This document shows positions 20,701-62,845 of a DNA stretch of 64,000 nucleotides, piece by piece (position 1 is the first letter of the stretch; each line of letters begins with the position of its first letter). This DNA comes from Bolinopsis microptera (lineage: Eukaryota > Ctenophora > Tentaculata > Lobata > Bolinopsidae). Under the pieces are notes generated by a model. The model did not search any database. It saw nothing but the letters and a program-made list of their open reading frames with translations, and had not been told where the DNA came from. A program made the position numbers and the translations under genes. Location: the NCBI RefSeq assembly GCF_026151205.1, contig NC_087084.1:5139538-5203537 (forward strand), given 5' to 3'.

Positions 20701-23700
20701 TGGCAATTTTAGTGACCTGTAGTTAACTAAGCCAACCCAGTAATCGATCTGACCTTCTCTATAGACTAGATTTGACTGCTTTTAGCAAAATTGAATGTCA
20801 AAAACTACGGTTTTTGGTACTTACTAGTTCATGGTAAACCTATGATATGCCCCCTAAAATGTCATTTTTTTCTCCCCTAAAATGTCAAATTTGTATTTTG
20901 TTCGCATGGTGTGCGATAATAGCTCTTGTTTTGGCACTTGTTAATTATTAACATCAACTATTAACGAAATGTGAGTATGCATTGCATCTTAGGAAAAGCC
21001 TGAGTAATTTGATCAGGTTAAAACTTAAAATGACATTTTAGGGGGGATAATTAGACATTTTAGGGGATGTTTATTGCGATTAATAAAATAAAACTAATTC
21101 CTTGAGCTACCAAAGCTTTCCAATATTACCATTAGATGCTAAATATGATGTTTAATAGGCTGGTACCTCCATTTTATGGTGCCTCCATAGTCTCAAAGCC
21201 AGAATATGATAAAATGACATTTTAGGGGGCGGCCAGGTGACATTTTAGGGGAGGGTAGTAATATTGAGTAATGTATAACTTTCCATATCTCCAGTCATAT
21301 GTACAAAGTTGCTAAAATATGTAAATATCACTATCCTAGACCAAAACTGAGTTAATATTAATGAATTCCAGAGTTATAAAATTGTGCGCTTTTTTTCAAA
21401 AGTAAAAAATTCGTACAAAGTGAAAAAAATGCCCTTATGGCATCATTTAGATTCAATTTCAGGATGTGGCAGGGTCTGAATGATATTTTTTTATGTTTAG
21501 GAGTTACAAATGATTAGGTAAGATACTTTCTAAGAAGATGGGATCCAATCAATCAAGAGTGGCGTTTTAGGGGTGGGTGACATTTTAGGGGCGGTTTACC
21601 CGTAAGCTATTCCAATCATTTTGAACCAATAAAAAAATTTCAAATTTTTGCTAATTAGCTAATTGATAATTATCCAATTAATTGATTATCTGAGGTAAAA
21701 ATTGTCTGTACAAAAGTTTTCCTTCTTGATAATATGAACACCCTCGATTAATTCGCAACTTTCTACGATGTTCACAACTAAAGATATTTGACAAACAAGA
21801 AAGGTGGTAAAAAGTGGTGAAGTTGCAAAAAGTGGCCTTAAGACACGTGGAAAAGTCAAAAATCCTTTGTAAGCTTTGTGTGTTTTTAGACGGATTTCTC
21901 TGTACTAGATGTAATTTCGACTTTAATTCTAGCCAAAGCACACCCCCCCCCCCGCCCTTAAGCTATTCCAATCATTTTGAACCAATAAAAAAAATTTAAA
22001 TTTTTGCTAATTAGCTAATTGATAATTATCCAATTAATTGATTATCTGAGGTAAAAATTGTCTCTACAAAAGTTTTCCTTCCTGATAATATGAACACCCT
22101 CGATTAATTCGCAACTTTCTACGATGTTCACAACTAAAGATATTTGACAAACAAGAAAGGTGGTAAAAAGTGGTGAAGTGGCAAAAAGTGGCCTTAAGAC
22201 ACGTGGAAAAGTCAAAAATCCTTTGTAAGCTTTGTGTGTTTTTCAGACGGATTTCTCTGTACTAGATGTAATTTCGACTTTAATTCTAGCCAAAGCACCC
22301 CCCCCCCCCCGCCCTTAAGCTATTCCAATCATTTTGAACCAATAAAAAAATTTTGCTAATTAGCTAATTGATAATTATCCAATTAATTGATTATCTGAGG
22401 TAAAAATTGTCTCTACAAAAGTTTTCCTTCCTGATAATATGAACACCCTCGATTAATTCGCAACTTTCTACGATGTTCACAACTAAAGATATTTGACAAA
22501 CAAGAAAGGTGGTAAAAAGTGGTGAAGTGGCAAAAAGTGGCCTTAAGACACGTGAAAAAGTTTGGAAAAGTTGGTCAGCCATAAAGGACACCTATTAGGA
22601 CTCAAAAACGTCGAAAATTCTTTGTAAGCTTTGTGTGTTTTTCAGACGGATTTCTCTGTACTAGATGTAATTTCGACTTTAATTCTAGCCAAAGCACACC
22701 CCCCCCCCCGCTCTTAAGCTATTCCAATCATTTTGAACCAATAAAAAAATTTCAAATTTTTGCTAATTAGCTAATTGATAATTATCCAATTAATTGATTA
22801 TCTGAGGTAAAAATTGTCTCTAAAAAGTTTTCCTTCCTGATAATATGAACACCCTCGATTAATTCGCAACTTTCTACGATGTTCACAACTAAAGATATTT
22901 GACAAACAAGAAAGGTGGTAAAAAGTGGTGAAGTGGCAAAAAGTGGCCTTAAGACACGTGGAAAAGTCAAAAATTCTTTGTAAGCTTTGTGTGTTTTTCA
23001 GACGGATTTCTCTGTACTAGATGTAATTTCGACTTTAATTCTAGCCAAAGCACACCCCCCCCCCCCCGCCCTTAAGCTATTCCAATCATTTTGAACCAAT
23101 AAAAAATTTTCAAATTTTTGCTAATTAGCTAATTGATAATTATCCAATTAATTGATTATCTGAGGTAAACATTTTCTCTATAAAAGTTTTCCTTCCTGAT
23201 AATATGAACACCCTCGATTAATTCGCAACTTTCTACGATGTTCACAACTAAAGATATTTGACAAACAAGAAAGGTGGTAAAAAGTGGTGAAGTGGCAAAA
23301 AGTGGCCTTAAGACACGTGGAAAAGTCAAAAATCCTTTGTAAGCTTTGTGTGTTTTTAGACGGATTTCTCTGTACTAGATGTAATTTCGACTTTAATTCT
23401 AGCCAAAGCACACCCCCCCCCCCCCCCGCCCTTAAGCTATTCCAATCATTTTGAACCAATAAAAAAATTTTAAATTTTTGCTAATTAGCTAATTGATAAT
23501 TATCCAATTAATTGATTATCTGAGGTAAACATTTTCTCTACAAAAGTTTTCCTTCCTGATAATATGAACACCCTCGATTAATTCGCAACTTTCTACGATG
23601 TTCACAACTAAAGATATTTGACAAACAAGAAAGGTGGTAAAAAGTGGTGAAGTGGCAAAAAGTGGCCTTAAGACACGTGGAAAAGTTTTGAAAAGTTGGT

Positions 23701-24551
23701 TAGCCATAAAGGACACCTATTAGGACTAAAAAACGTCAAAAATCCTTTGTAAGTTTTGTGTATTTTTCAGACGGATTTCTCTGTACTAGATGTAATTTCG
23801 ACTTTAAATCAAGCCAAAGCACACCCCCCCCCCCCCCACCCTTAAGTTATTCCAATCATTTTGAACCAATAAAAAAATTTTAAATTTTTGCTAATTAGCT
23901 AATTGATAATTATTCAATTAATTGATTATCTGAGGTAAACATTTTCTCTACAAAAGTTTTCCTTCCTGATAATATGAACACCCTCGATTAATTCGCAACT
24001 TTCTACGATGTTCACAACTAAAGATATTTGACAAACAAGAAAGGTGGTAAAAAGTGGTGAAGTGGCAAAAAGTGGCCTTAAGACACGTGGAAAAGTTTGG
24101 AAAAGTTGGTTAGCCATAAAGGACACCTATTAGGACTAAAAAACGTCAAAAATCCTTTGTAAGTTTTGTGTATTTTTCAGACGGATTTCACTGTACTAGA
24201 TGTAATTTCGACTTTAATTCTAGCCAAAGACACCTATTAGGACTAAAAAACGTCAAAAATCCTTTGTAAGTTTTGTGTATTTTTCAGACGGATTTCACTG
24301 TACTAGATGTAATTTCGACTTTAATTCTAGCCAAAGCACCCCCCCCCCCCCCCTCCCCCCCCCCCCCCCCCCCCCCCCCCGAGTCCCAACCTTACCTTCA
24401 ATTGTGTAGATATTCTGTCGGCCACCTCGTCCGTAAAGTCCTGTAAGAACTGTTTGGAAACCTTGCCCATAACTCCCTTGTCGAAAGGTGACACCAAGGC
24501 GGTACTACAAGTGGTAGCTACTGCCGTCATCAACATCAGCTGTATGATCAT
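11704..24551 (-). CDS. BPI/LBP-like lipid-binding protein, two visible exons
   Basis: Two exons on the minus strand: 24551-24396 (start ATG, signal peptide, then STALVSPFDKGVMGKVSKQF, donor GTAAGG) and 12513-11704 (acceptor CCACCAG, stop at the low end), joined in phase 0. Together they give about 320 residues with the hallmarks of the first BPI barrel: an N-terminal VSPFDKGV-type strand, serine-rich beta segments (GTIRASGSWSYN, SISDRVNLGV), the two conserved cysteines of that domain (GSCRASMG and PSCAVIS), and the helix DLKRDLERSIREKVNEVV. BPI-family proteins bind lipopolysaccharide or other lipids in secretions. Normal members have two barrels and about 450-480 residues. This model ends shortly after the first, so either it is a one-barrel form or the last exons are missed. 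The 11.9-kb intron is packed with repeats. Confidence 0.8.
13070..13305 (+). repeat. Direct repeat, copy A (copy B 15118-15347)
   Basis: Starting GTTGGAGTTCAGTAAAT, about 230 bp is repeated nearly identically at 15118-15347, including AAAAGGGCTGAAACTGAAAA and TACATCCTTATCGATTTTCA. After copy A come 13311-13440, sequence shared with the pogo/Tigger-like elements. After copy B comes the opposite half of such an element (15345-15605, inverted), suggesting one element broken by rearrangement or a pair in inverted orientation. Confidence 0.8.
13542..13916. mobile_element. MULE-type MITE with 9-bp target duplication
   Basis: The ends read CGCTCCTACTAAATCGCTCG and, on the other strand, GGCTCTTACTAATTCGCTCG. 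They are flanked by the perfect 9-bp direct duplication GTTCGTATT (13533-13541 and 13917-13925). The empty target site is visible in the satellite units at 19-24 kb, which have one GTTCATATT at this point. A 9-bp duplication fits Mutator-like elements. The 375-bp interior holds a degenerate telomere-like GGGTTAGGGTTAGG stretch at 13741-13830 and no coding capacity. A related copy lies at about 41955-43210. Confidence 0.92.
14921..15058 (+). repeat. Dispersed repeat (inverted partner 63397-63533)
   Basis: ACTATTGTGACGGTACATT to CAAGGATGGGCACAT is present again on the opposite strand at 63397-63533 with near identity over about 137 bp, 48 kb away. It has no coding capacity and I see no clear A/B box, so its class (SINE, MITE or other) is open. 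Confidence 0.75.
16560..18090 (+). mobile_element. 5'-truncated LINE (CR1/Jockey-like) reverse transcriptase
   Basis: Open from 16560 (just after a stop) to 18029, about 489 residues. It runs through the canonical order of a non-LTR reverse transcriptase: VSPLFKKGSRCEAGNYRPVT at the start, HGFRANRSCLTQ, LDYAKAFDKVD (first catalytic Asp), SGVPQGSVLGPLLF, and FADD (catalytic pair) about 180 residues in, then the thumb region with WSTHI and LEYCCPLW. The endonuclease and any ORF1 are missing 5', as expected of truncated LINE copies. The 3' end after the stop finishes in an AAGTAAGTAAGT-type tail, typical of CR1/L2-like elements. It is sense to the plus strand, opposite to the BPI-like gene whose intron it occupies. 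Confidence 0.9.
18310..18676. mobile_element. pogo/Tigger-like MITE
   Basis: The left end CAGTAAAACCTCTCTATAAC and the right end GAGAGGTTTTA form inverted termini, and the left resembles pogo/Tigger ends. Interior sequence (e.g. CACGATCGACGGTACAGACT) recurs inverted at 15350-15605, and its other half appears near 13311-13440 and 16247-16330. No transposase is encoded. TA flanks the left end; the right flank is less clear. Confidence 0.65.
19263..24338. repeat. Tandem satellite array of about 356/400-bp units
   Basis: Nine recognisable units plus a partial one start at about 19265, 19557, 21605, 21960, 22317, 22717, 23072, 23433 and 23845. Each runs from GCTATTCCAATCATTTTGAA through GATATTTGACAAACAAGAAA and AGTGGCCTTAAGACACGTG to CTAGCCAAAGCACA, followed by a C-run of variable length. 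Long units carry an extra ~45 bp (TTGGAAAAGTTGGTCAGCC and beyond) that short ones lack. The array fills the BPI-like intron. Short open frames on the minus strand are repetitive and probably not genes. Confidence 0.95.
19959..21602. mobile_element. 1.64-kb element with inward-facing CCCCTAAAATGTCA array, inserted in the satellite
   Basis: The ends read CGGGTAAACCACCCCTAAAA and, on the other strand, CGGGTAAACCGCCCCTAAAA. TA flanks both sides (19957-19958 and 21603-21604), and uninterrupted satellite units have a single TA there, so this is an insertion with a 2-bp TA duplication, as in Tc1/mariner-type elements. The interior has no long open frame. The motif CCCCTAAAATGTCA recurs forward near 19970, 20153, 20313, 20333, 20851 and 20874, and in reverse near 21031, 21050, 21214, 21239, 21563 and 21580. 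All copies therefore point inward around a centre near 20950. Confidence 0.9.
24338..24380 (+). repeat. Poly-C run (one T interruption)
   Basis: About 43 bases of C with a single T near 24353. It lies at the downstream edge of the satellite array, 15 bases from the 3' splice donor side of the BPI-like first exon. It appears to be an extreme version of the C-run that ends each satellite unit. Confidence 0.95.
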
Positions 24552-29286: not shown

Positions 29287-32200
29287 AGACAAATACCATA
29301 ACCCTGGGGGTTACACCATCTTTCACTTCAAAGTGCCCAAGAAGAACGGACCGGTAGTTTCACCTCCGCTTACTGCTCTGAAAAAGACGTACCAGTCCAG
29401 TGACAATAAGATGTCACAGAAAACTGAGAAGGTTAGTTTTCGAGTTTCGCACAACACAATCATGCTTATGAGTATTGCTGAAAGCACAGTGTAAGGCCTA
29501 CACGGACCGCCTCTAACTAGCCAATCCCTGTTTACATGCCGTGTAGCAGGGGACTAGAAAGAGCTAAACTAGTAAGCGGGGCATAGCCAATACACTATAC
29601 TTTATATTTCTAAATTAAGAGTGACTGTCGACCACAATCGTTTAATTCCAAATATTGATAATTTATTTGATTCAAAATGTTAACCCACATCTCTTCCCAG
29701 ATCCCCATCACCACATCTTTACAACTGTCAACCTGGCAACAAAAATCGTTCGAGAACCATCTCTCCCGGGGTCTCTCCCGCCACTTGACCCACGGCAGCG
29801 GCCACATGACTCCCTCGCGTAACGTGATGTCATCACAACCTCACGTGACGTCACCAGTTCTGACGTCACGTGGGTTCCATCACGCGGGGTGCGGAAAATG
29901 CAGAAAGAGGAAACACAGTGGGAACTGTGATAGTAAGGACTGTGCGGGAGTCTCTGGTTAGTTTAACTCTATTATTTTTATTATTGCTTTTTTTACTCTA
30001 TAACTCTATTATTTTGTTAAACTGTTCTCTCTGACTTAATTAAAGGAGCAAAAGTTTTGCTCAACCAAGGAATGAGCTATTTTAATCCCACTCTAGTCGA
30101 CCAAGGAATGAGCTATTTTAATCCCACTCTAGTCGATGATTTAATTTTACGCTAAAGTACTCAACTACAGTCAATCTCCCGGACGATAACACTCGCCATA
30201 AAAATGTAAGTTTGGAAACTTTTCCATTTGTTATAATCTGCGAACCTCTCTTTTTTTTTCTTTTAATTTCTTTTTTTCTCAGGTATAACGAGTTACCCAC
30301 AAACGTTACCTCTCAACTTCTCGTCACCCTTGGTCAGCTCCAACTTTAACTGTACTGATATTCTGAAGAAAATAATCCATTCCCCGGAGACTATATGCAA
30401 ACCTTCGGTAAGTTTCCCTCCCGTTTTATGCTTTGATAAAAAATCAAGCGAATAATTTCTGACAACTTCACTATTAGGGTGTCCAATTATTCAATTAGTA
30501 AGTTAATGATCTAGTCAATAAGTTATTCTGAATCTGATTAATAAGTTAATCATGTAACAACATACTGCCAGATATCGGTAACAGTAGAAGACAAGGAGGC
30601 TAAGATTGACGTTATGAGTATCGATGTGACTCCCTCAACCTCCCTAACTCCATCCCCCTCTTCGTCCCACTATTCCGATGTCAGGTAACTTGCTCACTGG
30701 TCATGTGATTGGCTGCAGGTCACGTGATTAAAGTCATGTTAGAGCGCGCGAGTTTTAATAATTGTGGTAATTTGGGGGAGGGGCTAATTTTTCTAAATGA
30801 CAACATAGCGACAATTACAATCTGTTGTCGATGAAATTGGCAGCGCACTAACGCGGATCAATTAGTAGTTGCATTTTAATGAAAGAAACGAGTTGATAAA
30901 ATTACTATTAAAATAAAAGTTTGACATTAACATGCTATGAACTAAGATCGTATTATTTTACTTGGTTCAAGACTAAAATGGTCCCAAACATAACGCCCTT
31001 CCGAATCTACAGACAGCAGGTTACTCCTAAGTTATAGTTCACCCTCTTGTAAAAGAGGTTTGTATGATGCTTCATCGGATTTAATAATCTTCCAGCCAAT
31101 GACCATCCCAAATATGAGCAGACATGGCAGAGTAGCAATGATTATAATACCGATCAGCTCCACATCACCATATCCTGATTGTTCTGCACCCTTGCTATTG
31201 TCAGTTATATTCTCCCCATTCTCCCGCTCGATTGTATTTGATTGTGATAATTTTTTAGAATTTTCCAGAATTCTTCCTTTTATCTCCCTAGAGATTCCGT
31301 GATATCGCATTTTATGTTCGTCTTTTAATGGTTTGACCTCTGATGTCAGCAATTTCCCGACGTTGCCTTTGGGCCAATATTGACAAACAATGAAAACACC
31401 TTCCTCTCCAGTTCCCGGAGCTCGACCGCATCGCAATTCCTTTGTGTCTTTCCAAATAAGTTGAGTAACGTGTCCTATGTTTTTTCTCTTGTTACGTTTG
31501 CCCTCGTCTTTAAAACTGTACTGAAGAATTTCGTCGTACCATTTATTGATGCCGCTCAAATAGTCTTCTACTGGATTTAAAACTTCGGCATTCCAAGCTA
31601 TGTTCTCTCCGAGTAGGGATTGTCCGCCAGAATGTCCTACATTCTTAGGACCACGTGGCAACAGGTATTCGCTCCATTCCTGGGGAAAGAAATTGTGGGT
31701 CGAGTCTGACACACCGTAACAAATGTCTGGTGTGTCTTGGTGTAGTCGTCTCAATTCATTGTGATAATCCAGGATTGCCTGCTCGGTGATCGACAGTTTT
31801 TCTAGACATTCTGCAGCAATAAAATCGATCAATGCTAAAAACGTTGGGATCAAAATCAACTTCATTTTGATCTTAAATAAAAATAAATTCGTAACAGTAT
31901 GACTGCGTTTTATGGAACTGCAAAATTTATTATCTCGCCTGCTCCTTCATAAACGCAATTCAAACATATCCATTCAATATGAATCACCGAACAGAGGTAT
32001 TGGATGCTCTATCTTATTTCAGGAAAATTCTCGCAGTACATGCTAGCACGTGTTACGAAAAGGGGGGGGGGGGGGGGGGGGGGGGGGGATCATGAGTATT
32101 TTTGAGAGTCTCGACGAAAATGTCCAAATTCTCATTCTAAAAAATTGATTTTGAGTATTTTTACGTCTTTCATTGTGGTGTCAATTTAGATTAGCTGAAA

Positions 32201-32562: not shown

Positions 32563-33596
32563 ACTACATGCAATAGCAGATGCAATGCTTTAAAGTTATT
32601 AACTTATTTTCAAATGTTTCAATTCTGAGTTGGTTTGGCGTTTTATCAAATTTTGAAAGTGTGAAGTCTCTAAACAGCTGCATTCTTGGTAATCGAATAT
32701 GGATTAGAATTTTATTGCACACCGGACTTCTTATTTAATGATGTCAATCGAAGGTGGTTTTCATCCGATTTTTGATTCTACTATAGCAGCACAAACGGTT
32801 GCAGGTAAGATACAAATAATAATTTAATAAACTTGGGTATCTCAATTAAAAGTTGATACTTGGCAATTAATATGATTATTTTAAAAGATTGACCAATTGA
32901 AATTGGGCACTTACGGGAATTATCGATGTCAGAGATTAAAGAATTTAATTCAGGCAGTTTCCTTATGCCGTAACTTATTTTAATTTATGGCATATGCTGT
33001 CAATTTTCTGATGATTCAGTACTAAAATATCCAAATTTTACACAACTTTGATAAGTACTCTATTGGCTTTGATAAGTGTTCTATTATATTATTATGAATT
33101 AAGTAATGCCATTTTGAGGCGAATTCTTGTTACTGCTGCCTTGGTAACTGTTATCACGCCAAATTATAAAACTGTCAATGTAGCCGTGGCAGAAACAGTT
33201 ACCAAGGCAACTGTTCAATACAATTTGAAAGTTTTAATCTTTGAGGTTTTATCATTCTATAAAGTTTTATTTTGTAAAAGTTAGTTCTATAGTGTGTGTG
33301 TTTTTCTAATGATAACCTTATAAGGCACTACGCTGTTTTATAAATGTTGAATCAAAATTATTTTCCCTGCTCCAGAATTGATTTAGATATCATATTTTAT
33401 CTTCTGTCCCTATTATTCGCATTTAAACTAATTAATTAACTGATTGTTCAAAAATATATACGGATTCTTAAAAGATGAATTTGATTAAAGATGAATATTT
33501 TGGTAATTAATGTAATGTATTAGTAGTAAGTAGAATGAAAATATTAATGCTTACACTGCATGATGCGATGATTGGATGATATTTAGGGGGTATATT

Positions 33597-33913
33597 ATAC
33601 TCTAGTAGCAGAGAGGAGTTGAGTGTGCACTTCGATGTACACAATTTCTGACCACACAGGGTCCTTCATTAGGTCATTCTAAACCAAAATCATCTAGGTA
33701 CCCAATTTGTGTCGCTAGTCCTAGTGCTACAGGGCATATTTTCTAAATTGCCCTCAGTCGCGAATGGGGATTTTTGTATTTTGGCCCCTGAAGGTCGTAG
33801 AGGCTTCATTTTTAGCTTAAAATGACCGCAATGGGCATGTTTATATACAACTTATGAATCAATATGTGGTCTAAAGGTCATATTTTTGGAAATAATCTCA
33901 AAAAATTGATTTT
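33597..33913 (+). repeat. Left terminal inverted repeat of the 7.6-kb transposon
   Basis: Matches 40842-41157 in reverse complement, from ATACTCTAGTAGCAG to CTCAAAAAATTGATTT, with only scattered substitutions. It contains AAAATGACCGCAATGG at 33819-33834, a motif shared with the ends of the second element at 55.7-59.0 kb. Confidence 0.95.
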
Positions 33914-34614
33914 TTAAAATAAACACAGAAAAAAATTTTTGTAACTAAAAATCAACGTTTTCGTAGTTCCAAAACTTCTATCTCGTGTTATTTTGAACAA
34001 TAGGCATCAAAATAAAGAACAAAATGAAGTCCTAATGTGGAAATATCACCCCTGGAACAAATAAAAAGCCTAAAATTTGCACTTGAATTATCTAAGAAAA
34101 TGTGATAAATTATGGATCATGAAACTAATATATCTTTGATCTCGTATAGCAGATGGAATGGTCGGTCGTTTGTGGATGATGGCTGGATGTACCAGGAATT
34201 AACAGCTGATGATATTGTAATCACTCAAATGCCGAAAGCTGTTCTGTCATGAAATATCAGAAACCATTTGAAATTCGACCTGACACGTTAGGTTGAAGAT
34301 TTATATGAAGACCTTTGATGTCTTTTGACCTAAAGTGGGACGGCAAACATCTTTGAAATTTGACCTAGGATGTGAATTACGTGCGATGCTTGTTCTAGGT
34401 ACGATTTATCAAAATAACCAACTTAGAAACCAGATAAATGATCTTTGTTATCATAAGTCATAACTGTTCCAGTTCAGTGTACAGCTATAATTGTGGTTAG
34501 TTACTTTGTTGTTCGATTAGCTGCTCGTTGCATAGACCTCAAGTGATTTTTCTAGTCGAAAACTATTAAGGCCTGTAAATTTGTTTGTTCTGAACGTATT
34601 CGATCATTGACGCC

Positions 34615-37600
34615 ATGGATGGAGATGAGCTGAAAAAACTGGCTGACAAAGTTTGTCTCCTGAAGATGGTCAGAAAGCTCAGCACAAGGGAGATATTTGA
34701 TGCTCTTTCACCTCAGGAGTTGGCTACCGCTATTATCTTATACCGTGTGTATGTCAGTGTCAGCAGTGCCAAGGTATTAGTCAACTTAAAATTATTCAAC
34801 TACTCGTTACAAATTGAAAGTTGTACTTGCTTTATTTGGTCAATTATCCTTGAAACCCATTAATTTCAATAGTAGCCAATATATTATAACTGCAGATTAA
34901 AACGGCCGAAGAGTGTCACAAGAAAAGGAAACAGAAAATCGCTAGCATTGCAGCATTGAATGATCACAAGCCTCTGAAATATGTTATGAAGAAAGCATTT
35001 ACTTGCCTGGTGACTGCTTCAAAAGGTAAGTGAATAACAAATTGTTAGTTAATAATATATGTACTCTGCCGTATTCAAAGTTTTCCTGAACTTTTTTCGA
35101 GCTACATTATCTTAAAATATTCAGTTTTAATTGTTAGAATTAATCTCCAATTAATAGATGTTGTTTCAGTTTGGCACTTAGGATTCTTCTCTTTTCAAGA
35201 CGTTTATGACAGATTTCTTCGGTTGGCTGATGACTCTAAATCGGACATAAATGAGGTTGTCACTGGTACGTTACCTCCTCAATTCGCTTCAATGTACGGT
35301 TCATTATAACTAGAAAAACTCAGTTGTTTGTCAAATATTTTTAATGTGAACAATTTATCTCACAGGTTTCCTGGGAGGAGATGATCAAACTCTGAATTTG
35401 CTATTTTCTCCTCTACTTATTTCTCAAACAAGGGCTGTTATTCCGGCAGAACTCTCTGAGAAAGCTTTTAATTTGCTTTCGGCAACCTGCGGGGACGAAT
35501 CTCCAGAAGCAGAAAGTGATGAAGACGAAAACATAGACCAGGAGCGTCCTTCGGTTAGTGCAGCATAGTTTTTTTTCGGAATATCTACTTTATTTTTAAC
35601 ACGAATCTTTAACCGTTTGCAGTTTATATAAGATAATCACGCGGGGAATTTTCACTTGATCGTTTATGAAGTTTTAACTGGTAATCTGATCGCAGACTAG
35701 CAAAGAAACCCCCCGAATACCTGTTGAACAGTTTAAAGGTATTGTTCTCAAGAATGAACCAAGATCTGACTCTTCAAAAATCACTTATAAATGTGTCATC
35801 TGTGGTAAAGTGGAAAAAAGTGCCGATAGGCTAGAAGGTAAATTATTGAACTGTCATTATTATGCTTATTTCAATGCTTACTTGTCCCATTTACATGCTT
35901 TTTTCTGTATTAACTGAAGATATTGGTCCTTCACATCTTAGCTGTAATTTTATAAAATAAATTTTCCCTCAGGAAAAGAGGAGAAACGTTTAATTATCAA
36001 AACTGCTGCTCAGCATTTTAACGATCAAGACGTGTTAAACAATATTGCTGAGTGTCCGGATACATTTTGGTATCATAACCAATATGCAACACTCAGAAGG
36101 AAAAATCCAACTCAGTGCTTCAAAGCGTATTCAATCAAGTTTAAAAAGTCTCCTCCGAGTGATCCAGCTCCAGATCCAACCAGTAAACACGTAGAGACGG
36201 CCATGGATGCTCCAGCACGCCTGAGAAAGAGCACAAGGTCTCGATCTGACAGCGGAGAAATATCTAGTCTTACACTGCATGAGAGCAAAAAAGGCAGGAA
36301 AGATGTAACACTTGTTTGTGAAATATGTCAAAAACGAGCTTCAGGGGCCTGGCCCAATCAATCGTATAAACTACTCCGAATTTCAGAAATGAAAGAAGGT
36401 GACACAAGAGCATCAAGATTTCTTAGTGCTATGAAGTTTAACGAAGACCATATTCTCAAAAAGTTCATATACTGCAAGACTGTTGGAGACATCTTTGCTG
36501 CCGATGTCTACTACCACAGCAACTGCATGATCCTCTATCTAAGGAAATACGAGCGTCAGGTTGACAAACTTCTACAAAACCTTCAGAGAGAGGATTCAGA
36601 GGTAAATCTGGAAAATGAAATAAATTCACTCCTCAGAAATCTTGACTTCGAAAGGAAAGCTTACACATTGACCGAGATCACGAAGTTATTAAACGATAAT
36701 ACTTCTCTCGAATACAACAACAGGAGATCGAAAGCCTATTTGATTAAGTTATTTGGAGAGGAGCTATCCTTTTCTTATTCTAGAGATAGGGCACATCCTC
36801 AAGTGGTCTTTAAAAGGTCTTTTGAAGTTTCAGATATCATAGAGGGTAAGTTGAGAAACTATGATCCGATCAAAGAATGTGCTAAAACATTGGCTACCGA
36901 AATCAAATCGCATAGTTTTAACTTAGATGAAAGCCTCTGTCTTCCTGCTGATTTGACAATCGCAATGGAACGTTACACCGAGTGCAGACCAAACCATTGG
37001 CTTAGGTTTGTCACCGCACTTTTTAAAGATACAAAACACAAGATTGAAGAAGAATGGCTCATGAAGTTTGACTCAGTTTTCCAATTTTTCTATTATTGGA
37101 TGTCAGGAAATATGACTCCAATGCACTGTGGTATAACTGAATCGATTCACTGTATCTCAAAGTCCAGGGAAATTATCGATATGGTTAGTCGATTCGGCTT
37201 TGGAATAAGCTATGACTCAATGAAAAGAATAGATGTTGGTATAGTGGAAGATGTCAAAGACAAGACTGGTGACAACAGAGGACCGGTAAATGATAGTATC
37301 AAGCCGGGTACGCCCATCCAAGGTGCAGTTGACAATTTCAACCATAAAGAGAGAACTCCAACTGGAGGTGATGTTAGCAATGACACAGTTTTGGTAATTT
37401 GGCAAAATAGTCTGGGCAATGAAGAGTCCCTATCTGATATAAATGAGATTAGTAAACGGCCAAAGTTGAAGTGGGAGGAAAGAAAACGAAACTTAGATTG
37501 TCGATTACCCTGCCAAAATTTGATTGAATCTAAATTGATGAAGAACACCGGGGAGATCGGCGAAGGGTTCACCCCAGACATGAACTACAAAAATAATAGT

Positions 37601-40600
37601 TCATTGCTAGAAAAGGCTGAAGAAGACCATACTACTTGGTTCTTTGCAAGGAATTTGCAACATGTCAGTGATGAAACGTTTACTTCCCATGTGCCCAGTC
37701 AGACTGCAGTGAACAGTAAACTACTATCTGCTGTACGAAGCTCTCCAAAAAAAACATCTATCTCATTTTTCCCAATTTTGCCATACCCTGCAACAGAGAT
37801 GGACAGTATTTACACTTCTATGGTTAACTTTAAGGATGTCCTAAACCAAAGAGGTGAAACCTGTGGCGCCCTTTGGTGTGACGAAGGTGTGTATTGTCTG
37901 GCAAAGGAAATACAGATGCTTAAACCAGAACAATTTGGTATGCTGTTTATTGGTCTTGGGCCCTTCCATTGGTCTAAGATTGTCATGGGGGCCATTGGAA
38001 AGTGGCTAAACGCCTCAGGGATCGGAGAGGCACTTACCAACTCTGGTGTGTTTACCTTAGGAGCAGCCAAGTCAAGTGTTCTACAAGGAGGAGATTATGT
38101 TAAAGCCAAGGACGGAATGAACATCATTGCAGAAGCGATCACTCTACTACAATTCAAAGCTTTCTTAAAGAGCGAGGACTACGAACTAAAGAAGCATCTT
38201 CTTGGCCTTGAAGACATCAAGTATGACATGAACGAAGTTTTCGAGAACTTGTATGAGTCGTCTAATGTAGATGCTTTCCAAGGTGCATGGGAGCTGGCTA
38301 AGTTGACTCTCGAGAAGCTGAAATCTGCTTTTAATGAGTTTCGAAAGTCCCACAATGCAGATCAAAACTACGAGTACTGGAACCTGTTCCTGGATCATAT
38401 ATACCCATGTATCCGGGACTTTGAGGCATCGGTTCGAACTGGAAAATGGGATTTATTTGTATCCGCTGTTGAAAGAAGCCTTGTGATATTTTTTGCGACT
38501 GGGAGACCAAATTATAGTAGATACGGACCCTTATTCCATCAAGATTGTCTTGATCTACAAAGAAAGTCTCCTGTAATGTACAAACATTTCAAGAAAGGAA
38601 TGTTTGTTTGTTACATGTCCGAGCGATATGGCAGTGGTATAGGCTTTGATCAAGGACTCGAAAAAGCGTACAATCACACTGCGAAAGCTACTGGTGGAAT
38701 TATTGGAATGACCCGCCAAAAAAAAGCCGTGGCCATGTGGGATATCATCAAACACGAAAAGGATTGTATGTTTCTTTTGTTAGGGAGACGATTAAAATTA
38801 AGGAGACTATGGGTGAACTAGACAGCCTGCACCATGAATTTGATCTGAATCAAGCTCAGGCAACCCACAGACGTATGAAACAACTGGTTGAGTACATCGA
38901 GTCGGTAGGCAATCCTTTCCTATCAGAAGCAACAAACAAGCTGACCAACTTGACGTCAAAGGAAGCTGTTGAGAATGTCGATTATCTCTTGAACTGCCTC
39001 GACCATGGACGAAGAAACTACGAAATCTTTTTACAAGAAAGATTCGTCCACAAGGTGAAAGGTTTGCATGCGAAGATCTCGAGCAAATACGAACCAACAT
39101 TTTCAGATTATAACATGGTCGAAAAACAGAAGGTCAAGCTAACATCAGACGACCAAGAAAACAGCTCTGCAGTCAGTTTCATACAATATGCCACTGCAAG
39201 GGGAAGAAAAGTGGAAGAGGTACTATCATACCCAATTACATCTCGCCCCATATATTTGCTAGAGCCCGAGACAACCAATCAAAAGAAAGCTGTCAAAGGC
39301 ACCTTAACAAGCTCTTTACTGAACTCACTAAACAAGGAGTTTGTAATCGTCGGGCAGGATGAGCAGCGTGTTCCACACGTGAAAACTACTGCTGTTGTTA
39401 TTGACTTCATGTCAGTTATAAGACGATTCTCCTCAGTGAAGATGACCAATGTTAAGAGTTTCGGATCGTTCACTGCAATGATTCTAAGTGCCATTATCAG
39501 TTATGGTAGTGCTAGTGATGCAATACACGTTATACTGGAGAATTATAGCGAAATGTCTGTTAAATCAGCTGAGAGGGCCAGGAGGGCAACAAAAGACGGT
39601 AAGAAGACCGCTCCAATATATTGTGACGTTGTTTCAGAGGAACAGACACTCCCTGTGTCATTCGACGATTTTTTCGGAAGGACCAGCAACAAAGTCAGCC
39701 TCCAGAATTTCTTCGTAGACTATTGTCTGAAACATTACTCCTCAGACAGGTCACTTTATATAGCTGGTGGTAGCAGGTCGGATCCCGACAAATGTATTAA
39801 GATTGCTGGTGGTGCTTGGGAAGAAGCTAATGTCTACCGAGCTTCTCATGAAGAAGCTGATGATAGGATAATGTATTCTATCAACAAGTTATACGAGAGC
39901 ACACCCAATAATTGCTCAATATCAGTTATATCACCAGATGCTGATATTTTTGTGACCCTGCTGTACCATTTAAGAAACAGGTGGCATGGTATGGAACTTT
40001 ATCTGTTAAAGAAAGGCAGGGTTAAAGAAGACAAGATACTTCAGAACGAGCTCTACCCACTCCATAAGCTAATCTTGAATCTTAGTCCAAGTGTGATTGA
40101 TAATCTTCCAGCTGGGCACGCCTTAACAGGTTGTGACTCAGTCGCAAAAGTGGGCACTAAGCCATCCTTGCTGAAAGCCCTAAAAACGGACGGTAGCTTA
40201 ATTCAAGACTTCGGAGTTGATATACTGAATGATGAAATGATTGACCAGGCAGAGTCATTTCTGGTAAAGGTAACAGCTAACAAAGCCTATGAGAATTGTT
40301 ACTCGTTTGATGAACTCAGAACAACAATGTACAAGCATTCAAGGGATAAAAAGTTCATCAAACTCCCTTGCTCATCAAATGAGATACGTCAAAACATTAA
40401 GCGAGCATATTATCAAACGAGAATGTGGTTGGAATCTCCTTATGGAGATGCAAGAGAACTTCTACACGTTGAAGACTATGGATATGACACCAGTTTTGCA
40501 CCGACATGGTACCTGCCACCAAGCAGGCCATTGGATGTTCCTCTGCCTTGCAAATGTAAATCGTGTGTAAGGAGAACATGTCCCTGTAGACAGAAGGAAA

Positions 40601-40665
40601 TCTCATGCTCTGATTATTGCAAATGTTTTGGACAGTGCAAGAGCATATTTAGAAATGATTCATGA
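34615..40665 (+). CDS. Transposase with XPG/FEN1-like nuclease and CXC tail (Academ-like)
   Basis: Exons 34615-34773, 34896-35025, 35170-35265, 35366-35553, 35696-35837 and 35973 onward. All five junctions have GT-AG borders and continuous phase, giving about 1,800 residues. The N-terminal part has Cys-pair motifs (KCVICGKVEKS; VCEICQKRASG). A central region includes LGPFHWSKIVMGAIGKWLNA, QGGDYVKAKDG, YWNLFLDHIYPCIRDF and FDQGLEKAYNHTAKATGG. The C-terminal half has acidic motifs in the order of XPG/FEN1 nucleases: VVIDFMS, HEEADDRIM, SPDADIFVTLLYH and HALTGCDS followed by a helix-turn-helix-like KVGTKPSLLKAL. A Cys-rich CXC-like module ends the protein (CKCKSCVRRTCPC...CSDYCKCFGQC). Near 38740-38760 the frame moves by -1, overlapping to the stop at 38819-38821. 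This is either a mutation, a consensus error or programmed frameshifting. The role would be cutting and joining its own transposon ends. Confidence 0.85.
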
Positions 40666-40841
40666 TTTACACTTTCTGATTTTATTTGTATAGCTTTGAT
40701 TTATACTGTATGACATGATTTGGAGGGTTTATTTATTCGATTTTATCTATTGTTAGAGAAATTATTTAATTTAAAATCGTCTAACAATTATTGACGAGAT
40801 AATAGTAGTAGCAGTACCAAGTATCGTAAATAAAATTTTGT

Positions 40842-41157
40842 AAATCAATTTTTTGAGATTATCTCCAAAAATATGACCTTTAGACCACATATTGATTCAT
40901 AAGTTGTATATAAACATGCCCATTGCGGTCATTTTAAGCTAAAAATGAAGCCTCTACGACCTTCAGGGGCCAAAATACAAAAATCCCCATTCGCGACTGA
41001 GGGCAATTTAGAAAATATGCCCTGTAGCACTAGGACTAGCGACACAAATTGGGTACCTAGATGATTTTGGTTTAGAACGACCTAATGAAGGACCCTGTGT
41101 GGTCAGAAATTGTGGACATCGAAGTGCACACTCAACTCCTCTCTGCTACTCTAGTAT
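40842..41157 (-). repeat. Right terminal inverted repeat of the 7.6-kb transposon
   Basis: Reverse complement of 33597-33913. Begins about 175 bases after the transposase stop. The stretch between (40666-40841) is AT-rich and should hold the poly(A) signal. Confidence 0.95.
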
Positions 41158-41954
41158 TAGTCTTTGCTAGTAAAGCATTCCTGTTTCCTTTTAAGAGGTC
41201 ACTATTATTGGAGAACATTGGTGGCCGATTGGTGGCTAAAATAAAACCAAGCAAAAGAAAATGGAAATGTTTGAAAAAGTCTTCAACTATGTTCAGGTCC
41301 AATTGACCTTATTTTGAGTGTTTCAAGTTTGATGTTAAAGTTTAGTTTTTCTTACCCTCTTTAAGTTATGAGAATTCTTCTTTGATATCCATTTTATATA
41401 ATATCCTGTTTTTATTTGTTCCAAAACTTCAGAATTCACCCGCTCAGTCTTTTAATATTACGAAAGCAAATAAATATAATTTAATAAACCTCTTCGGAAC
41501 AATATATTGATACATCAAACAATCTGAAAAGTTGAAAGTGTTAAATTTAATTTGCTGGCCTAATTAATAAAATGTCTTTGTCCTTACAGCTACTGATACT
41601 CCTTCCTAAAATGATGAGGACAACAAACGCATATGTGTAAGCTTTGTTAAGTATACGACCACTATCTCAATAAATGATTAAAAGTTGACCTCAACTCTTA
41701 GACTATTCGAAGACTGAGTTTTAGTTTAATGTTACATTTTTATCGTGGACTGGTCCGTGGGGGCAGTCACTAGGTGTTTAAGCTTGAAATTGTTGCGAGG
41801 GAGCCCCAGTTAAACTTAAATTGCCATTGTGGATTGGTGCCTCAAATCTGCAAAGAATTTTGCGGAAATTGTTGTCAACTGCCGAGCCAAAAAATCCGAG
41901 CGTGCTAAATTATCAGTAATAGTATCACTCTACATGACAGTCGATCTTCGAAAT
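41158..41954. other. Spacer between mobile elements
   Basis: AT-rich, no gene seen; reading frames here are short and match nothing I know. Confidence 0.4.
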
Positions 41955-53390: not shown

Positions 53391-53482
53391 TTCAGCTGCT
53401 CAAAATCAACGCTGTACATAGGGGCAGTACCCTGAAATTAATTGGAACATTAGCAAATTAGTTAGAAACAAACGAAACAATA
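53391..53482 (+). repeat. 92-bp direct repeat, copy A (copy B at 55467-55558)
   Basis: TTCAGCTGCTCAAAATCAAC to GAAACAATA is repeated almost exactly at 55467-55558. Copy A is followed at once by the end of an Academ-like inverted repeat (ATACTCTAGTAGCAGG from 53482). Copy B is followed by different sequence. Confidence 0.93.
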
Positions 53483-53790
53483 TACTCTAGTAGCAGGAGG
53501 GTTGAGTGTGCACTCGATGTACAGAGTTTTTTTGATACTGAATCGGGTTTAATTAGGACATTGAAACTCCAATCACCGAGGGGCACATTTTGTGTCCTAG
53601 TCCCAACCCCTGATGGGGCCACGCCCCATATTTCAACATTAGGCGCATGTATGGGAATATGTATCTCACCTTCCTGAAGGTTCCTTAGAGACTCAAACTT
53701 TGGCTTAAAATGACCGCAATGCACATATTTATATTGACCCTATGAAGGTATAAAGGCCCAAAATGCTTACTTTTGAAAAAATCCCGACAA
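53482..53790 (+). mobile_element. Solo Academ-like transposon end
   Basis: Begins ATACTCTAGTAGCAGG and continues GTTGAGTGTGCACTCGATGT, then AAAATGACCGCAATG near 53707, closely following the left end of the 7.6-kb transposon with many small differences. I found no matching right end downstream, so it is a remnant. Confidence 0.85.
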
Positions 53791-55466
53791 ACCGATTTTC
53801 ACTGGGCGAGAGTGAAAAATCTCTACATCTAGAAGCTTTATTGACATCGAGTATGCAGTTTGGTGTCTACAACTTTTCGCTAGAAACCAGGTCTATTGAA
53901 GGTCATTCTGATCAAATGAGTAAGGTACGCATTTCTATCATAATCCTAATCCTAGGGGGAAATTCAATTATCCCTCAGGCAACTAAATAAATGACTTTTC
54001 TAATCTCGCTTCTGAACAGTTGTATGGGCCTCTCTATTATCTTCAAACTAACTTGCAAAGGCCACATTATCTACAGCTATAAAGCAACATAGGGTTTATT
54101 ATGTGCTTAGTTTTGGAGATATTCATTAAAAACTGTTTTTAACTTTCGTGCATCCTAAATTAGTAAACACATGTACTTAATTTAGGTATCCCCGGGCTAA
54201 ACAGTCTTACAGACACTTCCCTTGCAGCACAGCAAAAAAGTCAGCATGATCACATTCAGATAATATTTATGGAGCAACACAATCAGTTTCAGAGCTCTTT
54301 TCCGCTATCTTACTTATCCACAAATTATACATCTCCACCTCTGGTTACTTCAAACCACTTCAAACCCCAAATATTATACATGAAAATCTAACAATCTCGT
54401 TAAATCTAGCACAAGTTGGGCTCTCTCCTACGTGTTTGGCTATTATGGCTAATCACTCCCATCCACCGCATGTTGTAGAATCTCCTTCTAGTTTTCTTCA
54501 ATTCTGCTACTCCATGCCATGCCTATTCTACCCGCTACCACCATGTACCAGCACGTATAATTCTAGCTCTTCAGCAAACTCTGAATGCCTACCCTCTACC
54601 TCCTCCTCAGTGCTCTATACAGACCACCAGAGGTCATAAACCACCAACTCCAGCTCTTATCACATACTTGGCTACATCTATTTAGCTACTCGCTGCAGGC
54701 CCCTGGCCCCTTCAACCTCTGCTCTTTCTAGCAACTTAACATAAGTTTTACTACCTCTTGCCTTTTAAAACACCACCATCAACAATTGTATTCTTGCTCT
54801 TTCTGCTGGCTTGCCTCAGTGCATTCAACAATTTTCCAGTCAAGAGAAAAGGAAACCATGCATATCTAGCAACCTCTGAATCTACTTCCTGCTCTAATCT
54901 AGCTTCCACCAACACCCATGCTAATTGTTGTTACTTGTTTAAGCTACCACTAGCATGAGCACCTGCAAATTCTAGCCCTATCCAGCAACTCAGACACATT
55001 ATACTCTATCCAATAGCACTAACACCCTCAAATTCAAGCTGGAGCCTGGAGGTAGCCTGAAATTAGTAAAAACAAATAAATTTGAGAGAGCCATTTAACT
55101 GAATAAGGTGGATGTAGACCGAATTACTAGAAGAAGCTCAAATTGTGGGTACCGTTTGCTAGTGTTAGCTGATAGAGCAGAAAGTTAGTCTGAGGTAGCT
55201 GGAAAGTGCTGAATTGCAGGTGCTGGTGATAGCTGTTTGTTTGTTTGTTTGGGGACGCGGTTTTGGGTAACCATCTCCTCTGGTATACTTCAAACCACTT
55301 TCAATCCCCAAATTTTATACATCTAACCATCCCACTAGTGTTCCATCTCGTTTAAAGCCAAGGATCGACCGAGACTGCTTTTTTGGCCGGGACTGGGAAA
55401 AAGTGCTGGGACCGGGATTAAGACCGGACCAGGGATTAGGGATCGGATTCTTTCCCTTTTTTCTTT
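53791..55466. other. Low-information stretch
   Basis: No gene supported. Pyrimidine-rich imperfect repeats (e.g. ACTTCAAACCACTT near 54348 and 55288) make short open frames that look like chance. Near 55390-55440 there is a GGGACCGGGA-type tract resembling the interior of the Hsp10-intron MITE. Confidence 0.4.
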
Positions 55467-55558
55467 TTCAGCTGCTCAAAATCAACGCTGTACATAGGGG
55501 CAGTACCCTGAAATTAATTGGAACATTAGCAAATTAGTTAGAAACAAAAGAAACAATA
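55467..55558 (+). repeat. 92-bp direct repeat, copy B
   Basis: Second copy of 53391-53482, uninterrupted at the point where copy A meets the transposon end. It continues into TAGTTATGCGATGG. Confidence 0.93.
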
Positions 55559-56363
55559 GTTATGCGATGGATGGACGTGAAACGGGATGCAATGAAGGCC
55601 GCGCCCAATTCCGAGCGGCGGCAAATTGTAAAAGCGCGCAATATTCGATTGTATCTTTTCATAGAAAATTCGTTTGGTGTTTGCGCTCAAGATTCATTTA
55701 TAGTTAGGGCAAGAATTGCTGTTTATGGGTCAATCTGTGAACAAATTCGTAACAAAGGTTTGTCTACAGGAATGTGTTGTCCATAGTCCCAGGAACCACC
55801 AAAAAAAACCGTCCAGCTGAAACTTTTGGGCAAAAATTTTTATAGTCATTTTTCTCCAGGAACCCATACGCCCCACCCCTAATATTGGTTATTCGGCTCC
55901 CGAAGGTTTTGAGATCTCCATAGGGGGTGCAAAATGACCGCAATGGCCACATTATGGCAGGCGAATGATAGTTTCAGAACGATTAGAGCTTTATTTTTTC
56001 GAAATAAATGGAATTTTTCGAAATTTTTCTCAATTTTATTGAAATTTCGAAAAAAAATACACCAAATTATTTTTAACGCTTATTTCAAATCTATTTAAAA
56101 ACTCATCTACAAATAACAAATACAGTTAATCTAAAATGTGTATTCTCAGTAAATACCATGACAATTATTAATACACAGTTAATATTAATCAAAATTCGCT
56201 TGTTCTTCAGGTTCATCATGTCTAATGTTTGTGCAGTTCATACCATGGCATCGTCCACAAGCTGGCAAACAATTGAAGCCATATTTCCTACATGAACATC
56301 TGAAAGTCAAACAGGCCTGTTCCACATCGACAGAACAGTTACAACATGTAAGGTTCGAAATAG

Positions 56364-56840
56364 ACTCTGGAGAGGGATCAGGGAGGAGGAGGAAGAGGAG
56401 GACTGAGGAGGACTGAGGAGGATGAGGACTAAGAAGAAGGATGAGGAGGAGGACTGAGAAGGAGGATGAGGACTAAAGACGACTAAGGAGGATGGCTGAG
56501 GAGGATGACTGAAAGGGAGGAGGAGGAGGTTGAGAAGGAGAAGGAGGAGGACCTAGGAGGAGGACTGAGGGGGAGGATGAGGAGGAGGAGGACTGAGGAC
56601 GACTTAGAAGAAGGAGGACTGAGGAGAACTGGTGAGGAGGAGGACTAAATAGGAGGAGGAGGAGGGGGACTGGGGGAGGACTGAGGAGGATTGAGGAGGA
56701 GGGGGAGGACCGAGGAGGAGTAGGAGGGCTGAGGAGGACTGAGGAGGATGGCTGAGGAGGATGACTGAGGAGGAGGACTGAGAGGGAGGAAGAGGAGGAG
56801 GAGGAAGAAGACTGAGGAGAAGGAGGAGGAGAGGACTTTT
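56364..56840 (+). repeat. Purine-rich GGAGGA/GACTGAGGA satellite
   Basis: About 480 bp almost entirely of G and A, built from degenerate GAGGAGGAGGACT and ACTGAGGAGGAT units. It lies inside the second transposon, between the Cys-rich tail and the rest of the transposase. The Ser/Pro-rich minus-strand frames through it are products of the repeat. Confidence 0.93.
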
Positions 56841-56911
56841 TGTCCGTTTTTGTCCGCTCTATTTTTTGTCCGTTTTGAAAATATAGGGTACCGAACGAAC
56901 AAAAAACATGA

Positions 56912-56912
<1 letters not shown>

Positions 56913-56953
<41 letters not shown>
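56913..56953 (+). repeat. Poly-C run, 41 bases
   Basis: Uninterrupted C run inside the second transposon. It marks the point where transposase coding sequence ends (on the minus strand it follows SNKAALGIK). Confidence 0.97.
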
Positions 56954-57020
56954 TTTATACCAAGAGCAGCCTTATTAGATATCCTCATCATCTGATATTG
57001 ATCAAATAAGCTCATCGGCA

Positions 57021-57169
57021 CAGGGACAAAAGGAAATCGCGGCATGTACGAAATCGCGATTTTTCCCATTTTTTGCGACAAATTTTATGTATAGTTTAAT
57101 GTATAGTCTGTTAAAAATCGCGGTTTCGCGAAATTGGGCCAAAATAATCGCGAAATCCTTTTGTCCCTG
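57021..57169. mobile_element. hAT-type MITE, family 2, copy 2, nested in the second transposon
   Basis: 149 bp starting CAGGGACAAAAGGAAATCGC and ending GAAATCCTTTTGTCCCTG. It is flanked by a perfect 8-bp duplication CATCGGCA (57013-57020 and 57170-57177). Removing it would restore transposase reading at this point, so it landed after the host element. Confidence 0.95.
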
Positions 57170-59011
57170 CATCGGCACCACAGTTAACTCGTATGTTAGG
57201 CATTCCTCTATTGAAGTCTCTCTATCAGCAACCAAGACTAGACGGTTAAAACACTTCAACGGATCGACTGCAACGCTTTTATTATTCACTTTAACCTGCT
57301 TTCTTAGTTGTGTCAAGTTCTTTGCTTTACATTTGATACTTATCTTATCGATGAATGTCAACCCATCTAGCTCACGTTGAAGGACAGCCCCAACGGCCAA
57401 ACATTCCTCGGGATTCACCTCATCGTTCCCAGGCTGTGATATAAGACCAGTCGAAAAAGATATTAACTTAGTCTTATCTTCGGATTCTGTAAAGTCGACA
57501 GTAACTTTAAACCAAGTTAATAATTTTCCAAATACATCACAGTTTTTCTTGATTGATGACTTGGTAAGATCTGAGTGGATGGCAGCCTTAGTTGGTACTC
57601 CTGATCGCTTCGATGAATTAGCTAATGAATCTCCAAAAGACTGATTTATTAAAGCCATCTGATTCAGGGTGGCCACCCATAACTTGTGAGCGGACTCACG
57701 ATTACGCATCCTTCCACTTGTTAATCCACCACTAGATTTAGCTGCCTTCATAAGACTCTGCTCTATGGAGAGGTCAGTCCACACCCCGGCCCACTCGTGG
57801 TCGTTGTAACAAACCGTGTGAAGCCCAGTTACTTTAAAGGTCTTTAAAAGCGCCCCATACTTGACTTTAAAAATAGCATCCTGCTCCAAATACAGTCTTA
57901 AAGCTTTTGCATACTGTCCCCTCCCAGCTGCTGCGAAGTAGAGAAGTAGGGCAGCATCAAAGCTACTGCTGATAAATGCATAGTGTAGTCGTGCAACCTC
58001 TCTGCTCTTATGAAGTCCTTTACTAGTGTTATCATGTTGTGGTAAGTAACCCATAGAGCTGCTGTTCTACTGTTGGAAAACAGGTTCTTTAGAAGCAGAG
58101 TTATTTTCTCTGATAGATCCTGAATAGATTTAGTCTTAAAGTTAACACCTAGATTTTCGTTCACACATTTGTTGATGTAACCTTCCAAGTTTACTAGTTC
58201 ATCGTCGTAAACTTCTTCCTTTATAATGAAACAACAAAGAGCGGCGTCGATCAGAAAGTGGGCTCTCAACGCTTTATAGTAAGATCCTCCATCCGATATA
58301 TGCGTGACGTCTCCAGGATACACGAGTTTGATGAGCTCCTCTAAACCCGAGTCTGCCATTATATAGCCTATGCAGCCTAGAAAACTCGTGAGAGTGTGGA
58401 AGCCCCCAACCCTGACCACAATAGACATCCCAGTTTCCAGTACTATTTGGGTGGCCTTAATCCACAATGGCAAATCGAATGTGATTATCATCGGCTCACT
58501 GTAGGATAGGTAACTTAAGACATTCAGCCAGAGTAGTATGTACCGTCGAATAGCTGTCTGGGGGTTGGTCAATAATCTGTTGTTTGTTAGTTAACCTTGA
58601 TATTTGTTAATTGAAGTTATTTCCCGAGTAAGATTTGAAATAAGCGTTAAAAATAATTTGGTGTATTTTTTTCGAAATTTCAATAAAATTGAGAAAAATT
58701 TCGAAAAATTCCATTTATTTCGAAAAATAAAGCTCCAATCGTTCTGAAACTATCATTCGCCTGCCATAATGTGGCCATTGCGGTCATTTTGCACCCCCTA
58801 TGGAGATCTCAAAACCTTCGGGAGCCGAATAACCAATATTAGGGGTGGGGCGTATGGGTTCCTGGAGAAAAATGACTATAAAAATTTTTGCCCAAAAGTT
58901 TCAGCTGGACGGTTTTTTTTGGTGGTTCCTGGGACTATGGACAACACATTCCTGTAGACAAACCTTTGTTACGAATTTGTTCACAGAAAAATCAACTCTT
59001 GCCCTAACTAT

Positions 59012-62106: not shown

Positions 62107-62535
62107 CCAGATATCAAATTTCAACTATCGGTAAAAGTCCCGTTTAAGTACAGGTCAATACAGTTTCAATATCTTTGCAAACAGTGGTTAGGAGTTCAGC
62201 TATTGTATCTCTGAGTGAATTGTGTCTAAGTGAAACGTAGCCTCCGATTTGTTAGAGTATGGTTGATATGATTTTGTTTTCCACATTCATATAGAGGACT
62301 TCTGTTAGCTGTAGACGGTGTGAGATTATATCGGAATGTCGACTGATAGTCGGATCCCAACCGTTCTAAAAGGCTATCTCGTTAGCTTTTCGTGTTAAAA
62401 GCGATTTCTCAACGGTTATCACCTCTCTAGATGATTCTTAAAACATTTGGACTTCATGGCAAGGTTGAAATACATGCAATGAGGGCGTTTTCGGCCACAC
62501 CCTTTTTCAGGGTTTCGCGGTCACTCGAATTATTG

Positions 62536-62845
62536 TATTTCAGCCCAAGAAGGTCTTAAAGACTATTCCGATACACCAAAATGTGCCTAATAGCCACATT
62601 TATTTACAACTTATGAAGTAACATATACCTTAAAATGCTTTGTTTCGGAAATATGGCCGAAAAACGGTTTTTGGCTTGACGCAGTTCATAATTTCCGTGA
62701 TTTTTGGCATTTCCGCCTAGGAAGGTCGTAGAGACTATTCTGATACACCAAAATGTGCCTAATAGCCACATTTATATACAACTTATGAAGCAACATATAC
62801 CCTAAAAGGCTTATTTTCGGAAATGTGGCTGAAAAACGGATTTTT
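62536..62845 (+). repeat. Two tandem Academ-end-like segments
   Basis: 62536-62672 and 62703-62845 are direct copies (ATACACCAAAATGTGCCTAA, TAGCCACATTTAT, CAACTTATGAAG). They follow the sub-terminal part of the 7.6-kb transposon's repeats (GAAGGTCGTAGAG, then TTTATATACAACTTATGAA). No element interior accompanies them. Confidence 0.75.

Follow-up and report, generated by a model that had tools for sequence, protein, structure and literature searches.

In the present study, a stretch of 64,000 nucleotides from the ctenophore Bolinopsis microptera (contig NC_087084.1, positions 5,139,538 to 5,203,537 of the forward strand; hereafter, the window) was found to carry E1, a real transposable element of the DNA transposon type with terminal inverted repeats (TIRs), whose copy is not intact as read, being broken by a frame change within its single large gene. 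Since its ends are nearly identical, E1 is considered fairly young. The reading that we favor, and hold to be reasonably probable, is that E1 is an AcademX-like copy of the Academ superfamily, with a DDE-type core and an accessory nuclease. A first-pass annotation, made from the letters alone, had instead proposed an XPG/FEN1-like nuclease as the catalytic core, a claim that found no support in our analysis and is contrary to the published classification of Academ in the passages cited below. E1 and its related ends are arranged in the window as follows:

33598..41156, plus strand: whole E1 transposon, 7,559 bp, with TIRs and a TTA target duplication
33595..33597: left target site duplication (TSD), TTA
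41157..41159: right TSD, TTA
33598..33912, plus strand: left TIR, 5'-TACTCTAGTAGCAG..., 310/315 identical to the right arm
40842..41156, minus strand: right TIR, 5'-TACTAGAGTAGCAG... on the minus strand
33819..33833, plus strand: 15-bp subterminal core AAAATGACCGCAATG, candidate transposase-binding site, 221 bp from the left terminus
40921..40935, minus strand: the 15-bp core in the right E1 end, 221 bp from the terminus
53483..53801, plus strand: E3, isolated left end, starting with TACTCTAGTAGC as E1 does, ~68% identical to the E1 end
55701..59010, minus strand: E2, second element (3,310 bp), degraded and diverged, TSD TTA/TTA, related protein

The arms of E1 were first detected at 33597-33912 and 40842-41157 (316 bp, 98% complementary, 6.9 kb between them), and taken from the edges 33598 and 41156 they span 315 bp, with 310 of the 315 positions matching. 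The inverted ends placed by the first-pass annotation at 33597-41157 are thus present, with limits one base too wide on each side, because the outermost bases are part of the duplicated TTA target (33595-33597 and 41157-41159) and not of E1. The lone TTA pair of E1 is weak evidence, because random 3-mers match in ~2% of cases (20,000 random position pairs); TTA/TTA flanks both E1 and E2. Moreover, the TTA parse was preferred because the diverged end E3 begins with the same TACTCTAGTAGC, and TACTCTA seems to be the element's own. An alternative parse of E1, with TCTA/TCTA and shorter ends starting GTAGCAG, was disfavored, E3 having the same TACTCTA.

The ends are not single-copy within the window, where a diverged end lies at 53483-53801 and E2 carries related ones. 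The E1 and E3 ends are similar at E 7e-17, and the TIRs of E2 align with 344 matches in 361 columns, 12 of which are gaps; no right end of E3 was found within the window. A search model built from both ends of E1 plus that of E3 matched eight places in the window: besides its own three sequences, these were 62701-62845, 53847-54140, and 62530-62672, as well as 69 bp within each end of E2. Furthermore, AAAATGACCGCAATG has five exact matches in the 64 kb, one per end of E1, E2, and E3 and nowhere else, at similar distances from the terminus (E1 left, 221 bp; E1 right, 221 bp; E2 left, 230 bp; E2 right, 220 bp; E3, 224 bp). This core was picked post hoc, when the ends had already been seen; because little else in the ends of E1 and E2 can be aligned, the block is a good candidate for the binding site of the element's protein.

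Some additional features adjoin these related ends. The stretches 62530-62672 and 62701-62845 are two tandem diverged pieces of the end block, with a diverged form of AAAATGACCGCAATG. A 100-bp direct repeat (98%; 53384-53482 and 55459-55558), possibly a duplicated flank or exon, has a copy at 53384-53482 that stops exactly at the start of the E3 end. Within E2, a 149-bp insert (57021-57169) has inverted ends of the sequence CAGGGACAAAAGG together with a duplication of 8 bp, CATCGGCA, and presumably resembles a hAT-type miniature inverted-repeat transposable element.

Regarding coding capacity, the single gene with six exons and about 1,800 residues described in the first-pass annotation holds in predicted exon count and size. 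The predicted model starts at 34615; its five introns, each bordered by GT..AG, measure 100-144 bp, and the last exon covers 4.7 kb. Summed over both frames, the model gives ~1,800 residues:

34615..34773, plus strand: exon 1, predicted start ATG, open frame, GT donor
34896..35025, plus strand: exon 2, predicted
35170..35265, plus strand: exon 3, predicted
35366..35553, plus strand: exon 4, predicted
35696..35837, plus strand: exon 5, predicted
35973..40665, plus strand: exon 6, one frame change between 38650 and 38818
36317..36526, plus strand: CxxC ... HxxC pattern, possible zinc-binding module, read from the sequence

No Pfam match was obtained for the CxxC ... HxxC region (152-aa stretch, 36245-36700). 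Exon 6 consists of two long open frames, of 957 and 671 aa, which overlap by ~170 bp: the upstream one (P0002) terminates at 38821, and the downstream one extends uninterrupted between 38650 and 40665. No splice that would explain the frame change was seen. Consequently, the wording "nearly intact" hides a single frame change within the last exon (38650-38818), and the suggestion of a potentially active autonomous copy is weakened by it; since the change lies upstream of the nuclease-like part and the cysteine (Cys) tail, the copy as read loses both. It is conceivable, although we doubt it, that the gene is intact and that the change arose as an error in sequencing or assembly, or else reflects programmed frameshifting, which would be compatible with the other readings discussed here. 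A single break in ~1,800 codons and ends that differ at just 5 of 315 positions speak for this possibility, whereas no canonical slippery heptamer was seen by eye at the presumed break. Moreover, the alignment with E2 extends to residue 922 of the upstream frame, which is ~8 residues short of the presumed break; from there, the E2 frame remains open for ~170 residues, as far as the nested insert. This weakly suggests that the gene is normally continuous there. Beyond residue 130, E2 has no significant match to E1.

In this context, the middle region of the protein is the candidate for the DDE/D-type core of the favored Academ reading, on the basis of a weak domain match and of colinearity with E2:

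37325..38671, plus strand: candidate DDE/D-type transposase core, weak DUF6589 match and colinearity with E2, residue roles putative
37325, 37874, 37958, and 38645: candidate residues, namely D in AVDNFNH, D in WCDEGVY, GPFH, and E in FDQGLEKAY, respectively

The Pfam family DUF6589 matched weakly at 37934-38524, from just before GPFH to GRPNYS (7.5e-05, the best of three cuts), and at residues 695-850 of the full P0002 frame (6e-04). The minus-strand gene of E2 is colinear with E1, its two pieces aligning with residues ~653-839 and ~825-922 of P0002; none of 500 shuffles scored as high for either piece, and BLASTP with BLOSUM45 returned 9e-06 for one and 0.004 for the other. In that alignment the FH and the D...E pair are conserved in E2, and so, by eye, is the second D. 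Compared with the nuclease-side half of E1, the E2 pieces gave no significant match, with 385 and 264 of 500 shuffles scoring as well, and the nuclease side of E2 holds a poly-C tract and a GGA-rich array; the Cys pattern at its 3' end resembles the E1 tail by eye. Many uncharacterised animal proteins share the layout of the E1 middle region, together with HALTGCD-like motifs and C-rich tails.

Academ elements carry an XPG nuclease, and the XPG/FEN1 reading of the C-terminal part of E1 is plausible from its sequence, two features being involved:

39394..40140, plus strand: XPG/FEN1-like motif series VVID, ILEN, HEEAD, SPDAD, TGCD, statistically inconclusive
40549..40638, plus strand: CXC-like Cys tail, Pfam TCR weak and below cut-off, E2 tail similar by eye

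The four motifs quoted in the first-pass annotation are present, at 39394-39414, 39847-39867, 39931-39951, and 40117-40140. As for its CXC-like tail, the cysteines are there, and Pfam TCR on the tail alone stayed below the cut-off (E 0.19, 12.5 bits against 23.5; 3.4 in the longer frame). Its statement that the motifs follow the order and spacing of XPG/FEN1 nucleases was upheld only in part by tests built on nine FEN1/EXO1/GEN1/XPG sequences. A wide five-block chain chose sites other than those proposed, with 139 of 2,000 shuffles as good. A tight-block chain, designed after the wide one had missed the motif sites and not given those sites, placed its blocks on VVID, SPDAD, and TGCD; for ILEN it was one residue away from the analyst's assignment, and for HEEAD two. 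The score of this chain was equalled by 93 of 1,000 shuffled versions of the protein and by 9 of 85 real open reading frames (ORFs). Two block subsets fared worse (410 and 209 of 1,000 shuffles, 22 of 85 ORFs each), and both scored higher on the upstream frame P0002, the other half of the protein, than on P0001. Ranked singly among ~610 positions, three blocks came 2nd or 3rd and the others 10th and 53rd. The DxD-to-GxD spacing is 64 in E1 versus 52 in FEN1. Furthermore, hmmsearch with the nine-sequence XPG profile gave E 0.13 (two-sequence search space) and hhalign a probability of 0.4%, in neither case at a position connected with the motifs; the exon-6 frames had no match to Pfam XPG, and phmmer against PDB did not support a likeness to FEN1/EXO1/GEN1/XPG. 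The pattern noticed in the first-pass annotation is thus plausible, and one sequence cannot prove it.

These results bear directly on the proposal that the XPG/FEN1-like domain is itself the true catalytic core, cutting structured DNA such as hairpins or flaps formed by the inverted ends and moving the element with no DDE domain at all, which we regard as improbable. The tight-block search did fall on or near the five-site series, and the downstream frame containing the series runs, counted from its first ATG, for 618 residues without a stop; against this, the series is not significant, and the sole region significantly common to E1 and E2 is the middle one. To our knowledge, XPG enzymes hydrolyse DNA and none is known to join strands. 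A more specific form of the proposal, in which a flap-nuclease (XPG) fold and not a DDE domain cuts the DNA, with the end block ~220 bp inside the termini as its recognition site, seems to us slightly more improbable still. In addition, the claim that Academ differs from DDE/D transposases by its XPG-like nuclease disagrees with passages that count Academ among the superfamilies with a DDD/E transposase (PMC9587614), name it as a DDE transposon superfamily (PMC9004415), or search for it with DDE/D profiles built from earlier work (PMC10294476).

Under the favored reading, with a DDE core and an accessory nuclease, an intact member of the family would make one protein of ~1,800 residues. This protein would bind the long TIRs, probably through the block conserved ~220 bp from each end. 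A DDE/D domain with an RNase-H fold, situated in mid-protein, would then excise the element, join it to a TTA target, and leave a 3-bp duplication. The C-terminal XPG/FEN1-like nuclease would have an accessory role, either trimming flaps or gaps where element and target meet or processing the break left in the donor, and the Cys tail would help to hold the DNA. If the nuclease part is real, it more probably assists in the reaction than moves the DNA itself, and we know of no tested role for the nuclease part of a large Academ-type transposon protein. As a genome feature, E1 would be ordinary, a further broken copy of the known Academ kind; with its good ends, clear 3-bp duplication, and end block shared by diverged neighbors, it opens the binding site and the roles of both candidate active sites to testing.

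An unlikely alternative, yet a more credible one than an XPG core, is that E1 represents a different or new superfamily of TIR transposons that shares the Cys tail and the XPG-like motifs with Academ. PIF/Harbinger elements use TWA targets too, and TTA duplications would suit other groups; TTA stands at both E1 and E2, and the 315-bp ends are long. On the other side, gene size, motif set, and TSD length agree with descriptions of Academ, and no Pfam transposase or Myb-type family was matched in the exon-6 frames scanned. No helicase family in Pfam was matched in the two exon-6 frames either.

Wider searches returned no relatives of E1. The C-terminal frame had none in viral contigs, where short patterns were used, nor in phages or plasmids, and the N-terminal frame, searched in plasmids only, had none there; the E1 end sequence was likewise absent from plasmids. 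In viral contigs, neither the degenerate HALTGCD[ST] pattern nor a FEN1 query revealed a relative. In genome contigs the same pattern occurred in 20 stretches, against which tblastn of both exon-6 proteins reached a best E of 0.19; the 21 pattern-bearing frames in these stretches, read by eye, included no relative, and PF00867 was not found in the genome of one among the 20 loci. NCBIfam gave no family, PHROGs two chance-level matches only, and the Rfam and tRNA scans were empty.

Several observations weigh against the favored reading, both in its Academ assignment and in its division of labor. Academ membership is read from anatomy and from passages of the cited papers, and E3 is preceded by ATA instead of TTA. 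The DUF6589 score is below the curated cut-off (22 versus 27 bits), another family, DUF7032, gives a weak match of its own to part of that stretch (best 0.0041), the E2 pieces have no DUF6589 match, and our literature search found nothing on this family. No E2 counterpart of the first D (AVDNFNH) was seen and the second D was matched by eye, so that the D/D/E triad is checked in part only and in a single relative. With default settings, BLASTP between E1 and E2 gave 0.031, and a tblastn search of the window with E1 did not return E2 at E up to 1. Moreover, the XPG motif and profile tests were not significant, and two AlphaFold single-sequence runs, which excluded the middle region, yielded no usable model (mean predicted local distance difference test scores of 33.5 and 36.1).

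Elsewhere in the window, the following features were observed, among which the two host-like ORFs point to an animal host:

2459-2979: perfect CCTCA array, 104 copies
11704-12522, minus strand: host-like ORF, LBP/BPI/CETP (7.9e-08)
16560-18029: retroelement reverse transcriptase ORF (RVT_1, 1.2e-29)
21599-24340: tandem array, units of ~356-410 bp, poly-C tracts in some
31032-31946, minus strand: host-like ORF, CAP family (2.4e-08)

Compared with known systems, E1 shares with the FEN1/EXO1/GEN1/XPG nucleases the order of the D, D/E, ExD, DxD, and GxD motifs, and differs in a looser spacing and in the lack of Pfam, PDB phmmer, hmmsearch, and hhalign support. Its weak match to DUF6589, just before GPFH to GRPNYS, stays at 22 bits against a cut-off of 27, in a family for which Pfam states no function. 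Our literature search found no paper joining Academ and XPG. The AcademX lineage of the Academ superfamily was reportedly described by Kapitonov and Jurka in 2010 and by Kojima in 2020. In PMC10045372, TSDs of 3-4 bp in AcademX and 9-10 bp in AcademH are tied to a nuclease and a helicase, respectively, the nuclease being mentioned there without XPG. AcademH has the same superfamily name and differs from E1 in its TSD (9-10 bp versus 3 bp; PMC10045372) and in its helicase, for which the E1 exon-6 frames have no match. The length of E1, 7.6 kb against a mean of 5,565 bp for curated bivalve Academ elements in the passage concerned (PMC10294476), is a further point against the assignment, and its 315-bp ends set it apart from AcademX, to which it is likened by description and not by sequence. 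In brief, the first-pass annotation was right to see a TIR DNA transposon that is Academ-like by anatomy, with a large single gene, an XPG-like series, a CXC-like tail, and a 3-bp TSD, and the closest likeness appears to be with AcademX: one large gene, a nuclease-like instead of a helicase product, XPG-like motifs such as those of Academ, and a TSD of 3 bp within the 3-4 bp given for that lineage in PMC10045372.

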